From a virus: 64,000 bases of DNA. Shown here in pieces: positions 8,449 through 53,033 of the stretch (position 1 is the first letter of the stretch; each line of letters starts with the position of its first letter). A model generated the notes under the pieces. The model saw nothing but the letters and a program-made list of their open reading frames with translations, was not told the origin of the DNA and did no database searches. Position numbers and translations under genes: made by a program. The stretch lies in the IMG/VR virus record IMGVR_UViG_3300027911_000012, positions 1-64,000 of that record; one strand, given 5' to 3'.

Positions 8449-8712
8449 TTACTTCTTGTTTTTCTTTGCGCCTGTACCGTCAATCTGGTACACCTTGGCC
8501 GTCGCCCCCATATACTTCAACACCACCTCGTTCGGCGGCCGACCGCGCTTCGTCCGGCTGTCCCAGCGCATCATGTTGACCAGATGCGAATACGACAGCC
8601 GCATCCCAGTCCTCGCCTCAATCTCCAGCCGAAACTGTTCGACGGACTTCCGTCCCTTGCGCGATTTCAGCGAAGACGCGATCTGGTCGGAAGTCAGGTA
8701 TTCCGGAGACAT
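8449..8712 (-). CDS. Small HTH-like DNA-binding protein, probable repressor
   Basis: 87 residues. Residues about 25-70 read like a degenerate XRE/Cro-type helix-turn-helix (QFRLEIEARTGMRLSYSHLV, then a basic RTKRGRPP turn and VVLKYMG). First gene of the leftward transcript. A strong promoter and two TTTCA-N4-TGAA palindromes lie directly upstream, one between the promoter and the start codon, so autoregulation is likely. No ribosome site is obvious before ATG 8712. Confidence 0.65.
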   Translation of the reverse strand: MSPEYLTSDQIASSLKSRKGRKSVEQFRLEIEARTGMRLSYSHLVNMMRWDSRTKRGRPPNEVVLKYMGATAKVYQIDGTGAKKNKK

Positions 8713-9328: not shown

Positions 9329-9667
9329 ATGGCGAAGCAACTGAGTCAACGGGCATACGAGATTCTGACCGTGATTGACGATCACACAAAGTGGGAAGGT
9401 GACACGCGTCCCGGTTCTAGCCTTAGTCGGTACTGGTATCCGCCATTGGACACTTGCAACAATTGGTCTGAGACGTTAGGGCGCAACGTTTACATCTCTG
9501 GCTCTGGCGATTGCGCTATCTTGCGATCATTCGCGCGCAAGGGTCTGACGAAATCAATCCCGAACATGATTCGGGAGTATGCCTGCCATATCACGGAAGA
9601 TGGAATGATCGCGCTAGAAAGATTCCGCGAGGAGTCTGTTTACGTGGATGGCAGGTTTCCCGACTAG
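9329..9667 (+). CDS. Hypothetical early protein
   Basis: 112 residues. The start ATG 9329 is chosen because the promoter -10 lies at 9298-9303 and AGGGAG precedes the ATG by 8 nt. The N-terminus (QRAYEILTVIDD) may form a short winged-helix-like DNA-binding region, but no family is clear. First gene of the rightward transcript, so probably expressed early. Confidence 0.65.
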   Translation: MAKQLSQRAYEILTVIDDHTKWEGDTRPGSSLSRYWYPPLDTCNNWSETLGRNVYISGSGDCAILRSFARKGLTKSIPNMIREYACHITEDGMIALERFREESVYVDGRFPD

Positions 9668-9698
9668 CGCGTGCTTCGGTACAGTCTAGTCCAAACTA

Positions 9699-9739
9699 GT
9701 TAACTATAGTTAACATCACATCACATCACGTCACATCGC
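9699..9739. repeat. Palindrome plus ATCAC tandem repeats
   Basis: GTTAACTATAGTTAAC (9699-9714) is a perfect 16-bp palindrome, followed directly by five 5-bp units (ATCAC three times, then GTCAC and ATCGC, 9715-9739). It lies in the 5' leader of the next gene. It could be an operator or an RNA hairpin; no terminator-like T-run follows. Confidence 0.5.
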
Positions 9740-9756
9740 ATAGGAGTGTACATACA

Positions 9757-10146
9757 ATGACGCAAACACTGAACTATCTCGGCATGGATGTATTCACATC
9801 GGCGTACTACGAATGCGCGCTATGGTCTAGTACTGACGATAACGGCACACCGTTGGATAGCGGCGCTAACTCCGACAGGGAACTGTCTCAGTCTTGTATT
9901 GACTTGTTCAAATCAGACTGTGACGCGTTTCGCGCCGCGAATGCCGCTCTCATTATCGAAGCGCAAAAGTACCAATCGATTGGTCACATCGCGCATGACT
10001 TCTGGTTGACTCGCAATGGTCACGGCGCGGGATTCTGGGATGGCGATTATCCGAAGGATATCGGGGAATCGTTGACCAAAGCGAGCAAGAGTTTCGGCGA
10101 ATGTGACCTGTATATCGGCGATGACGGCATGATCTATGTCGCGTGA
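9757..10146 (+). CDS. Conserved phage protein of unknown function
   Basis: 129 residues. The C-terminal half has a pattern I recognise from small proteins of many phages (HDFWLTRNGHGAGFWDGDY, then GECDLYIGDDGMIY), usually early or replication-adjacent and without known function. Start ATG 9757; AGGAG is 10 nt upstream. Confidence 0.7.
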   Translation: MTQTLNYLGMDVFTSAYYECALWSSTDDNGTPLDSGANSDRELSQSCIDLFKSDCDAFRAANAALIIEAQKYQSIGHIAHDFWLTRNGHGAGFWDGDYPKDIGESLTKASKSFGECDLYIGDDGMIYVA

Positions 10147-10179
10147 AACTCCGCTACAGGCAAGGGTTTCGGCGCGCTA

Positions 10180-10255
10180 CTAGGTCAATTTGACCTAGCA
10201 CTAGGACAATGTGTACTAGGACAGTTTGACCTAGTGCTGGGACAATTCGGACTAG
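10180..10255. repeat. Array of four 19-bp CTAG-bounded palindromes
   Basis: Copies at 10180-10198, 10201-10219, 10216-10234 and 10237-10255. Copy 1, CTAGGTCAATTTGACCTAG, is a perfect palindrome around a central T; the others are variants (for example CTAGGACAGTTTGACCTAG). Starts are spaced 21, 15 and 21 bp, so copies 1/3 and 2/4 are each 36 bp apart. Copies 2 and 3 overlap by 4 bp. Spacing of about two helical turns suggests cooperative protein binding, as in iterons or multi-operator control regions. Confidence 0.8.
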
Positions 10256-10313
10256 TCGAGAACGGGAAAGTTATAGCACAAAGCGATAGACGCAACGATA
10301 GGAGAATTGGCAT

Positions 10314-10790
10314 ATGCGGCAACAATCCAAGCAAGAATTAGCGAAATCGAATGCCAGACTACAGGCCGAACTAGACCGCGTGCATGAGGCGTTAGGCGCG
10401 GTCATGGGCGGTAACGCGGTACTGGTAGGACAGTTCACGTTGGACGGCCAGACAACCAAAGCGCGGCTAATCGGCGCGGATAGGGCGCATGGCGGACTGG
10501 TTATGTTCAGCGAGACCACGAAGGACGGCGCGCGCGCAATGCACAGAGTGCATTATCTCGAAGAACAAGAACGGGAGCTGAGACACGCGGGAACCGATTA
10601 CGCAAGGAATCTGAGGAACTTGGTAGGCAAAGCGCGCACAGAGGCATGGCGGAAGAGACACGCGCCAAAGGAAACGATTGTAGACGTGGCCGTCCGGGCC
10701 ATGATGCCAAGTCAAGACGGGCAGCACGGAATCAAGTGTGAGGATTGTTGCGACAATCCCGCGTGCTGTGCTGGGCATGACGCACGCTAA
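10314..10790 (+). CDS. Hypothetical coiled-coil protein
   Basis: 158 residues. An N-terminal heptad-like helix (residues 3-30), a compact middle, and a C-terminal Cys cluster CEDCCDNPACCAGHD suggesting metal binding. AGGAG lies 9 nt before ATG 10314. It lies just downstream of the palindrome array and may be controlled by it. No family is recognised. Confidence 0.65.
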   Translation: MRQQSKQELAKSNARLQAELDRVHEALGAVMGGNAVLVGQFTLDGQTTKARLIGADRAHGGLVMFSETTKDGARAMHRVHYLEEQERELRHAGTDYARNLRNLVGKARTEAWRKRHAPKETIVDVAVRAMMPSQDGQHGIKCEDCCDNPACCAGHDAR

Positions 10791-15829: not shown

Positions 15830-16093
15830 ATGAGCATCAGGCTGGCGATGGTGTTGAGGGAATGGCGCAAGGGCAGTGGAGTCACGCTCAGACAGGTCAG
15901 TGAAGAGTCAGGGGTGTCGGTGAGCACATTACACCGTGTCGAGATGGGGATTAGGAAAGCGACAAGCACGAGCCAGGACAACCGGAGAGCTGACAGCAAC
16001 GGGCTGGACGGAGTCAGCTTAGGCCGCTTGATTGTCTGGTTGCTGAGTGAACCGGTAACGGAACCGGACAAGACCGAGGCGGCGCAATCATGA
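15830..16093 (+). CDS. XRE-family transcriptional regulator
   Basis: 87 residues. Residues about 3-40 form a Cro/C1-type helix-turn-helix (LREWRKGSGVTLRQVSEESG then VSTLHRVEMG). Size and fold fit a phage Cro-like repressor. It is embedded in the rightward operon with an ATGA overlap to the next gene, unlike the two other XRE genes here, which have their own promoters. Confidence 0.8.
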   Translation: MSIRLAMVLREWRKGSGVTLRQVSEESGVSVSTLHRVEMGIRKATSTSQDNRRADSNGLDGVSLGRLIVWLLSEPVTEPDKTEAAQS

Positions 16094-20744: not shown

Positions 20745-21719
20745 TTACTGTACCCTCCCGATTCGATACGATCCCCACTTGGCTTTCGACACTAGACCGG
20801 CATCGATTAAATCGATAAGCCGGCGATTTACGGTGGATCTGGACAAGCCTAGCACTTCCCCAACGTCAACGATGTCTTGGGTGGTCAGAACGGCGCCAGG
20901 CTCATTGGAAAACAGGACAGCGTCAAAATCCTCGAAGCGCAGCAGCGGGTCAGTCGATCCATTAAGCACGGGTATCAAGATGCCTTGAGTAGAGAACTTG
21001 TAATGCAGACGATCGGCGAGGCCGCTTTTGGACTGGATTGTGATCGTGCGACGGGCGTCGGACGGGTTGTCGGGGTTGACGTAATCGATGGATACAAACG
21101 TCGAGCTACCCTGAAGCCACGAGTAGGCTCCGGCGAATCGGTCACGGCTAGACGCATAGTGATCCTTGGGCTTGGAGGAACAACCACTAGCCACGAGCGT
21201 CAGGTTATATTGGAACAGTGCGCGATTGATTTCGGAAATAGTATCAGCGACCGCGCTGGGATCGTTCTGGTTTTTGGTGCAAATGGGTTGGATGCCGTCA
21301 AGGAAAAGTACGTTGAGCTTGGGTACCGCGTGAATGGCTTCTTGGCAGATGCTTTCAAATGTTCTCGGCGAGACGCTGCTCGTGGTTGACAGTACTTCTA
21401 CCTCGGCCCCTACGCGGTTCATCACATCCTTGGCATGTTGCGCTGTATGTATGGTGGACATATAGCAACATGAGGCTGGATGTGACTCGTGGCCGAAAAC
21501 CGGCCGTCCGGCCATCCAATCCCGGATGATCTGAAACAGCAATGTGGTCTTGCCCACGTATGTGGGGCCACCGATCAGGGAAATAGCTCCACGGCGGAAT
21601 AGACGGTCAACGATGAAATCGGCAGGTTCGGTGAAGGACTCGTTATCGGGGGGCTTCGGTGCAGGTTGTTTGGAATTGGCTTTACGTCGGTTCGAGGACT
21701 TCGGTGCTTTCGGTGACAT
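20745..21719 (-). CDS. RepA-like AAA ATPase with C-terminal winged helix
   Basis: 324 residues. A disordered basic N-terminus, then Walker A GGPTYVGKTTL (50-60), Walker B NVLFLDGIQP, and a RecA-like core of the AAA_25/RepA helicase type. Residues about 275-324 form a winged helix (LGLSRSTVNRRLIDLIDAGL). The architecture suggests a replicative helicase loader or a regulatory ATPase. GGAG lies 6 nt before ATG 21719, with a promoter at 21775-21802. Orientation opposite to its neighbours suggests separate control, as for a replication-initiation or lysogeny module. Confidence 0.8.
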   Translation of the reverse strand: MSPKAPKSSNRRKANSKQPAPKPPDNESFTEPADFIVDRLFRRGAISLIGGPTYVGKTTLLFQIIRDWMAGRPVFGHESHPASCCYMSTIHTAQHAKDVMNRVGAEVEVLSTTSSVSPRTFESICQEAIHAVPKLNVLFLDGIQPICTKNQNDPSAVADTISEINRALFQYNLTLVASGCSSKPKDHYASSRDRFAGAYSWLQGSSTFVSIDYVNPDNPSDARRTITIQSKSGLADRLHYKFSTQGILIPVLNGSTDPLLRFEDFDAVLFSNEPGAVLTTQDIVDVGEVLGLSRSTVNRRLIDLIDAGLVSKAKWGSYRIGRVQ

Positions 21720-45023: not shown

Positions 45024-45770
45024 ATGGCAAACGACGCAATCGGCGAAAGAATGAAATCTCAATACGAGGACAGGACACGTATCTTCCTGCCCCGACGAAC
45101 GTATACAATTTTACGCGTAGACGGCAAGGCGTTTCACTCCTACTGTCGCGGCATGGCACGCCCGTACGACAAAGGTTTCATGCAGGCAATGGACAACACC
45201 GCTATGTCGATGCTCAAAGAGCTGATGGGGGCCGAGATCGCTTATGTACAATCCGACGAAATCAGCTTCCTGTTGACCGACTTCGCCAAACCTAATACAG
45301 AAGCGTGGTTTGACGGCAACATCCAGAAGATGTCGAGCGTGGCAGCGGCAATGGCGACGGCGTATTTCACGGTGTCGATGGGCGGTGAGCGTGGATTAGC
45401 GATGTTCGACGCCAGAGTGTTCACGATACCGGATCATGTCGAAGTCGAGAACTACTTCATCTGGCGACAACAGGACGCCACGAGAAATTCGATTCTGATG
45501 TTAGCGCAGCACTACTATTCGCCGAAGCAGATGCACGGGAAGAACTGTTCCGAACTTCAGGACATGATCCACGACAAGGGCGATAACTGGAACGATCATC
45601 CGGCAAGATTCAAGCGCGGCGGATTCGCGTACTATGACAAGTCGGCGCAGCCTTACCCTGCTTGGCGGATGGCCGATGAGTGCCCTGTGTTTACAGGGGA
45701 CGAGGGTAGGCCGTTTCTGAAATCCCTGATTCCGGTGCACTGGCAAGAGGATTTGGCGGTGGTTAAATGA
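45024..45770 (+). CDS. Thg1-like 3'-5' nucleotidyltransferase (tRNA repair)
   Basis: 248 residues. The polymerase-fold metal motifs are ILRVDGKAFHSY (Asp33) and YVQSDEISFLL (Asp78, Glu79), the two signatures of tRNA-His guanylyltransferase and Thg1-like proteins. Length matches the family (about 240-260). Bacterial and phage members mainly repair 5'-truncated tRNAs by adding nucleotides in the reverse direction. It is a single rightward gene inside the leftward virion block, with its own leaderless-type promoter, and converges with a KTSC gene (8-nt overlap). Confidence 0.85.
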   Translation: MANDAIGERMKSQYEDRTRIFLPRRTYTILRVDGKAFHSYCRGMARPYDKGFMQAMDNTAMSMLKELMGAEIAYVQSDEISFLLTDFAKPNTEAWFDGNIQKMSSVAAAMATAYFTVSMGGERGLAMFDARVFTIPDHVEVENYFIWRQQDATRNSILMLAQHYYSPKQMHGKNCSELQDMIHDKGDNWNDHPARFKRGGFAYYDKSAQPYPAWRMADECPVFTGDEGRPFLKSLIPVHWQEDLAVVK

Positions 45771-52412: not shown

Positions 52413-52787
52413 CTACGCTCGCCCTATCAGGCCGCCGTGTCCGCCCTGCCCCGGCGCTGGCGGCATCCCGCCCGTCAACACCTGTTTCATGGACTGCTCC
52501 AAGGCCGTCGCCGCCGCGTCCAGATTTGCCGCCGCCGTGTACGTCTGCTGGTGAATCTGGAACCCCGCGCCGGCGTTATTGCCGTCGCCGATGGCCGCGT
52601 ACCGCATTGAATTCGCCAGTAACGCGTGCAGTATGTTGGTGACTTGACGCAGGATTTTGGCGTGCCGAGACCGTGGGATGTCGGCAGAGAACTGGACAGT
52701 GATAGTTTCGGTAATCGAGTCTTTCGGTGCAGGCGCGCTGGGCTCGGGGATGATCTCGTCAATCGTAGTATTGGTGTCGTCGCTCAA
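52413..52787 (-). CDS. Hypothetical protein of the ACP cassette
   Basis: 124 residues from TTG 52787, overlapping the upstream stop (TTGA) with GGAGG 6 nt before it. Disordered acidic N-terminus; a helical middle (HAKILRQVTNILHALLANSM) and an Ala-rich helix (AAANLDAAATALEQSM); Gly/Pro tail. No family. Cotranscribed with the RHH, ACP and acyltransferase genes. Confidence 0.6.
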   Translation of the reverse strand: MSDDTNTTIDEIIPEPSAPAPKDSITETITVQFSADIPRSRHAKILRQVTNILHALLANSMRYAAIGDGNNAGAGFQIHQQTYTAAANLDAAATALEQSMKQVLTGGMPPAPGQGGHGGLIGRA

Positions 52788-52996
52788 TTGGCACCTCCAG
52801 TAGCGGTCTTCTTGCCAACTCGATCGCACTGCATCCAGTGATCGAGTGCTTGATCGAGAATCTCAGACGGTTTCCGGTATCCGAGTTCCTTGCCGCGCTT
52901 GAGAATCGCCTTCCGCGTCTTGTCGGACACCCGCATCGAGATCACGGAGTTCAGCTTGTTGGGCTTTGGTTTGGATTTTGATTTCACGGTAGTCAT
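52784..52996 (-). CDS. Ribbon-helix-helix regulator
   Basis: 70 residues from ATG 52996. A Lys-rich start, then LNSVISMRVSDKTRKAILKR and YRKPSEILDQALDHWM, the strand-helix-helix of Arc/CopG proteins. First gene of the ACP cassette, with its own TTGACA promoter; the ATG lies 8 nt after the -10, so the mRNA is nearly leaderless. It probably represses its own cassette. Confidence 0.7.
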   Translation of the reverse strand: MTTVKSKSKPKPNKLNSVISMRVSDKTRKAILKRGKELGYRKPSEILDQALDHWMQCDRVGKKTATGGAN

Positions 52997-53004
52997 CGAC
53001 TGCA

Positions 53005-53033
53005 AATGTATACGCGAGACGCGCCGATGTCAA
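53005..53033 (-). promoter_or_regulatory. Promoter of the RHH-ACP-acyltransferase cassette
   Basis: On the minus strand TTGACA (53028-53033), 17-nt spacer, TACATT (53005-53010); TATACA two bases upstream is an alternative -10. Start of transcription near 52998, 2-3 nt before ATG 52996. It lies inside the virion block, making the cassette independently controlled. Confidence 0.6.

Follow-up and report, generated by a model that had tools for sequence, protein, structure and literature searches.

The phage DNA described here carries, at positions 10180-10255, an array of four similar palindromic sites whose clustering is far above chance, and which is probably a multi-site, multi-dimer operator controlling the gene that begins at position 10314. 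The window, that is, the whole stretch of 64,000 nucleotides analysed, belongs to an IMG/VR virus contig of 66,316 bp, whose gene content (a DNA polymerase, helicases and a probable packaging ATPase) is that of a phage. The element is of an ordinary kind, unusual within this genome, and its motif sequence is without precedent in the collections searched. Should it be an operator, the array would mark a regulated gene block in a phage without a close relative in those collections, and would also serve as defined DNA bait to isolate the regulator.

Structure of the array

The four 19-bp sites start at 10180, 10201, 10216 and 10237, the positions given for them in a sequence-only reading, with centre-to-centre distances of 21, 15 and 21 bp. 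Two inverted copies of a half-site, CTAGGWCAA at its best, flank one central base. The sites (no strand assigned) and the direct repeat that contains them are as follows:

10180-10198: site 1, CTAGGTCAATTTGACCTAG; 9 of 9 arm pairs, perfect 19-bp palindrome
10201-10219: site 2, CTAGGACAATGTGTACTAG; 7 of 9 arm pairs, 2 bp from site 1
10216-10234: site 3, CTAGGACAGTTTGACCTAG; 7 of 9 arm pairs, overlapping site 2 through a common CTAG
10237-10255: site 4, CTGGGACAATTCGGACTAG; 5 of 9 arm pairs, the weakest site
10178-10213 and 10214-10249, + strand: 36-bp direct repeat pair, 81% identical

The earlier description of one perfect and three near-perfect copies thus stands for site 1, which is the sole perfect 19-bp palindrome in the window, but not for site 4, a poor palindrome. 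A gap of 2 bp separates the members of each pair (sites 1-2 and sites 3-4), while the two middle sites overlap by 4 bp. Since the array can also be read as a 36-bp direct repeat, it probably grew by tandem duplication. The CTAG pair near 9686/9696 is present as well, but it has only one degenerate half-site in common with the array. At 9686-9740, upstream of the ORF at 9757, ACTAGTTAACTATAGTTAAC is followed by a CATCA-type run, within the most A+T-rich 40 bp found within about 500 bp of the array.

Genomic setting

Genes run leftward up to about 8.7 kb and rightward from about 9.3 kb. The array is located in a 167-bp gap between two rightward ORFs, ending 58 bp upstream of the start codon of the second one:

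9757-10146, + strand: ORF of 129 aa, phrog_1915 (function unknown), upstream of the array
10314-10790, + strand: ORF of 158 aa, no family match, directly downstream, with a good ribosome-binding site, TAGGAGAA; the presumed controlled gene

TTGACA-type promoter matches were found before the ORFs at 9329, 11351 and 36974 and, on the other strand, before 8449-8712, 20745-21719 and 52784-53005. No TTGACA occurs in the array gap, where the best promoter match is TTGACC-16-TGTACT. As regards the genes on the other strand, the structure predicted for the 8449-8712 product alone was of low confidence (pLDDT 62). The ORF at 20745-21719, on the strand opposite to that of its neighbours and with its own promoter match, encodes an AAA_25 ATPase of 324 aa, whose C-terminal part gives a weak winged-helix match and which may be a regulator or a replication protein similar to RepA. 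The small product of 52784-53005, in the late gene block, looks by eye like a ribbon-helix-helix protein, with no Pfam match. Furthermore, the product of 45024-45770 resembles by eye a tRNA-His guanylyltransferase (Thg1-like).

Uniqueness and significance of the cluster

In the full 66,316-bp record, exactly four places match CTAGGNCAANTTGNCCTAG with three mismatches or fewer, so that the scattered copies which would have spoken against a dedicated element are absent; within the window, the next-best matches carry at least four mismatches. The tetranucleotide CTAG, said in the earlier reading to be rare in many phage and bacterial genomes, is also scarce in this DNA, with 103 occurrences in 64 kb against about 240 expected from base composition. 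One perfect 19-bp palindrome was observed here, against a mean of 0.39 in 200 second-order Markov windows. At an equal cut-off, the cluster of similar palindromes counts three members here against a maximum of two in the same kind and number of simulated windows, none of which held a comparable cluster; a looser cut-off gives four palindromes here, the simulation referring to the stricter one only. When palindromy is not required, a 77-bp span holds six CTAGs in this DNA, compared with at most four in 100 simulations. The array is therefore real, and its clustering is far above chance.

Searches for relatives and related arrays

Searches of IMG/VR, INPHARED phages and PLSDB revealed no related array, and a DNA-similarity search with the array in phages and plasmids gave no match. 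The IMG/VR motif scans returned 12 single sites and 18 site-plus-CTAGG matches, none of which proved on inspection to be a related array. No close relative of the phage was found in the collections searched, and neither the downstream protein nor the helicase led to IMG/VR relatives. For the upstream protein, 17 homologues were found at 41-68% identity, the contigs of which share almost nothing else with the phage; the packaging ATPase has six relatives (36-60% identity) that share little else with it, and those reached through the 11351 protein have almost nothing else in common with it. The exact motif was absent from the nine relative records searched, with no array of this sequence, and pieces from six relative records held one other palindrome cluster, of different sequence (in contig L083). 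A hairpin, CTAGGGCATNATGCCCTAGCCTAGG (or CTAGGCCAT...), was observed in the viral contigs L036, L037, L038, L042, L044, L047, L049 and L050, with two copies in L036; this recurring element appears to sit after a stop codon and ahead of the next gene's ribosome-binding site. A literature search for the half-site yielded no relevant motif in the titles and abstracts listed.

A scan of 84,980 bacterial and archaeal species (one genome each) matched the search pattern in four places, two of them unrelated palindromes and two 15-bp tandem arrays with the same arms:

L054:5136-5199: 15-bp tandem array of TGYCCTAGGACA type, upstream of cydAB (cytochrome bd oxidase genes), Rubrivivax MAG
L053:2819-2862: 15-bp tandem array of TGYCCTAGGACA type, Proteobacteria UBA964

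The 15-bp arrays of L054 look like the operator array of some regulator. A widespread operator in the Rubrivivax family was considered and rejected, as the array occurs in only 1 of 299 genomes. Because of this, and because a 15-bp tandem repeat alone satisfies the search pattern, these arrays were not counted as evidence of a shared regulator.

Function of the array

The sequence-only reading had offered three uses for the array, namely origin iterons, a multi-site operator or a partition-type site, and the operator is the one that best fits its anatomy. Several similar dyad sites stand close together between two genes, ahead of the downstream one; all four are confined to that one gap, with no other copies in the record; and the spacing within pairs is exactly 21 bp, two helical turns. 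Operators commonly multiply by tandem duplication, which fits the 36-bp unit found here. Moreover, the phage encodes several candidate regulators, namely XRE-type helix-turn-helix proteins at 15830, 36974 and 41090. Against the operator, in the window scan none of the candidate regulators had a further copy of the motif at its own promoter. In addition, the best promoter match of the gap scores 9/12, and this as the best of about 1000 combinations in an exhaustive scan, compared with 9-11/12 for the TTGACA promoters elsewhere in the phage. Finally, an operator has no need of spacings that are all divisible by three, nor of an open frame across the array, and both are found here.

From the arrangement of the sites we infer that a dimeric DNA-binding protein, phage- or host-encoded, would recognise the inverted half-sites. 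Up to four dimers could be bound, 2.0 helical turns apart within pairs 1-2 and 3-4 and 1.43 turns apart between pairs; on these spacings, the two members of a pair would share a face of the DNA, and the pairs would be about 154 degrees out of phase and thus face in roughly opposite directions. Such binding may control the transcription of 10314-10790 and probably of subsequent genes too, either by covering a weak promoter within the array (the TTGACC-16-TGTACT match, to which the arms of both site 1 and site 2 contribute) or by switching on a promoter immediately downstream of it.

The open frame bears on a different explanation, in which the array would be a repeat that codes, or once coded, for protein; it would continue the upstream frame beyond the TGA of that gene, and the palindromes would be a by-product:

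10147-10338, + strand: open frame across the array, 64 codons, 12-codon repeat, no start codon before the repeats

The array translates in this frame as LGQFDLALGQCVLGQFDLVLGQF (in a fuller reading, LLGQFDLALGQCVLGQFDLVLGQFGLV), and the 12-residue repeat, NSATGKGFGALLGQFDLALGQCVLGQFDLVLGQFGLVENGKVIAQSDRRNDRRIG..., would be expressed through TGA readthrough or be the relic of a lost gene. The 21/15/21 spacings and the 64 open codons suit this explanation, as do a third-position bias of modest strength between copies (variable columns at third codon positions in 5/7; differences between the 36-bp copies at third positions in 5/8), conservative amino-acid changes (L/V, A/V, C/F) and a codon score of 0.07 bits per codon, within the low end of real genes. 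Nevertheless, no ATG, GTG or TTG precedes the repeats in frame, and the TGA of the upstream gene is its natural end, since the homologues stop at the same point. Viral contigs yielded no relative of the peptide, and its matches in phages are at chance level only. Nor is the peptide matched by the profile of the upstream protein's homologues, where 770 of 2000 shuffles score as well. Leucine is nearly always CTA within the repeats, compared with 10% in the phage, and LGQFDL would take the form of a perfect palindrome with a probability of about 2e-4. The lack of a start codon and of a homologue, the natural stop before the frame and the odd use of CTA thus make a coding repeat less likely, and we regard it as an unlikely origin of the array. 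A derivation of the array from the C-terminal end of the upstream gene by duplication (FGECDLYIG against LGQFDLALG) was considered too and rejected; pairwise, 27 of 2000 shuffles were as good, and the homologue profile gave it no support. That both functions coexist, with an operator array inside a C-terminal extension made by TGA readthrough and the repeated LGQFDL peptide and palindromes in the same 76 bp, is barely credible. More generally, before a palindromic array is called an operator, it should be examined for a coding repeat if all its spacings are multiples of three.

A replication origin of the lambda type, in which the sites would be iterons bound by initiator dimers beside a melting region, was judged to be unlikely. 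The four inverted repeats of 19 bp closely match the anatomy of ori-lambda (PMC5043065), a DNA polymerase and helicases are encoded by the phage itself, and a 40-bp tract of 70% A+T at 9687, the richest within about 500 bp, lies 0.5 kb upstream of the array. The 40-bp flanks themselves, however, are only 37.5% and 55% A+T, so that no A+T-rich region adjoins the array, and the middle pair of sites overlaps by 4 bp. No initiator-like Pfam or PHROG match was obtained among the neighbouring genes, most of which match no known family, so that an unrecognised initiator may be among them. The GC-skew check proposed for an origin went against it, the cumulative minimum being at 8656, 1.5 kb from the array, where gene orientation changes.

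The array could also act as RNA, forming a long hairpin in the intergenic transcript that would affect its stability or termination. The array strand folds better than 200 of 200 shuffles (z = -4.6); moreover, the CA spacer can pair with the TG spacer, which makes a single imperfect inverted repeat of the entire array. Palindromic DNA gives such folding regardless of function, however, and sites 2-4 alone fold weakly. No U-run follows the array and no terminator is predicted there, the G+C-rich hairpin and T-run of an intrinsic terminator being absent, and no Rfam match rose above chance. A function as RNA is accordingly improbable.

Another conceivable role is in partition or in anchoring the DNA in some other way. 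Ribbon-helix-helix proteins do bind arrays of short repeats in plasmid centromeres, and a possible protein of this class is encoded by the phage at 52784-53005. That gene is, however, 42 kb away, among late genes, and no recognised ParA or ParB gene adjoins the array, which leaves this use very improbable.

Comparison with known systems

The bacterial arrays in L054 and L053 resemble the phage array in their outer arms, CTAGGACA...TGNCCTAG, and in the overlapping 15-bp step, as between sites 2 and 3; unlike it, they have no 21-bp step, and they were found by searching for this very pattern. In ori-lambda, the inverted repeats, which likewise number four and measure 19 bp, each bind an initiator dimer and are placed inside the O gene beside a 40-bp A+T-rich tract (PMC5043065), whereas the present array is intergenic and has no adjacent tract of this kind, and no O-like protein was found. 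A parallel in layout is offered by the Stl repressor of SaPI1, for which a single intergenic region carries four operators, nearly palindromic, that have been read as the sites of four dimers (two tetramers) (PMC9638917). The Stl boxes are TGTACT, 3 bp apart, and lie between the stl and str promoters (PMC9638917), while the array is made of CTAGGWCAA half-sites between co-directional genes, with no adjacent repressor gene identified. In both cases, four near-palindromic sites share a single intergenic gap, and the layout of the array is comparable to that of the four SaPI1 Stl operators.
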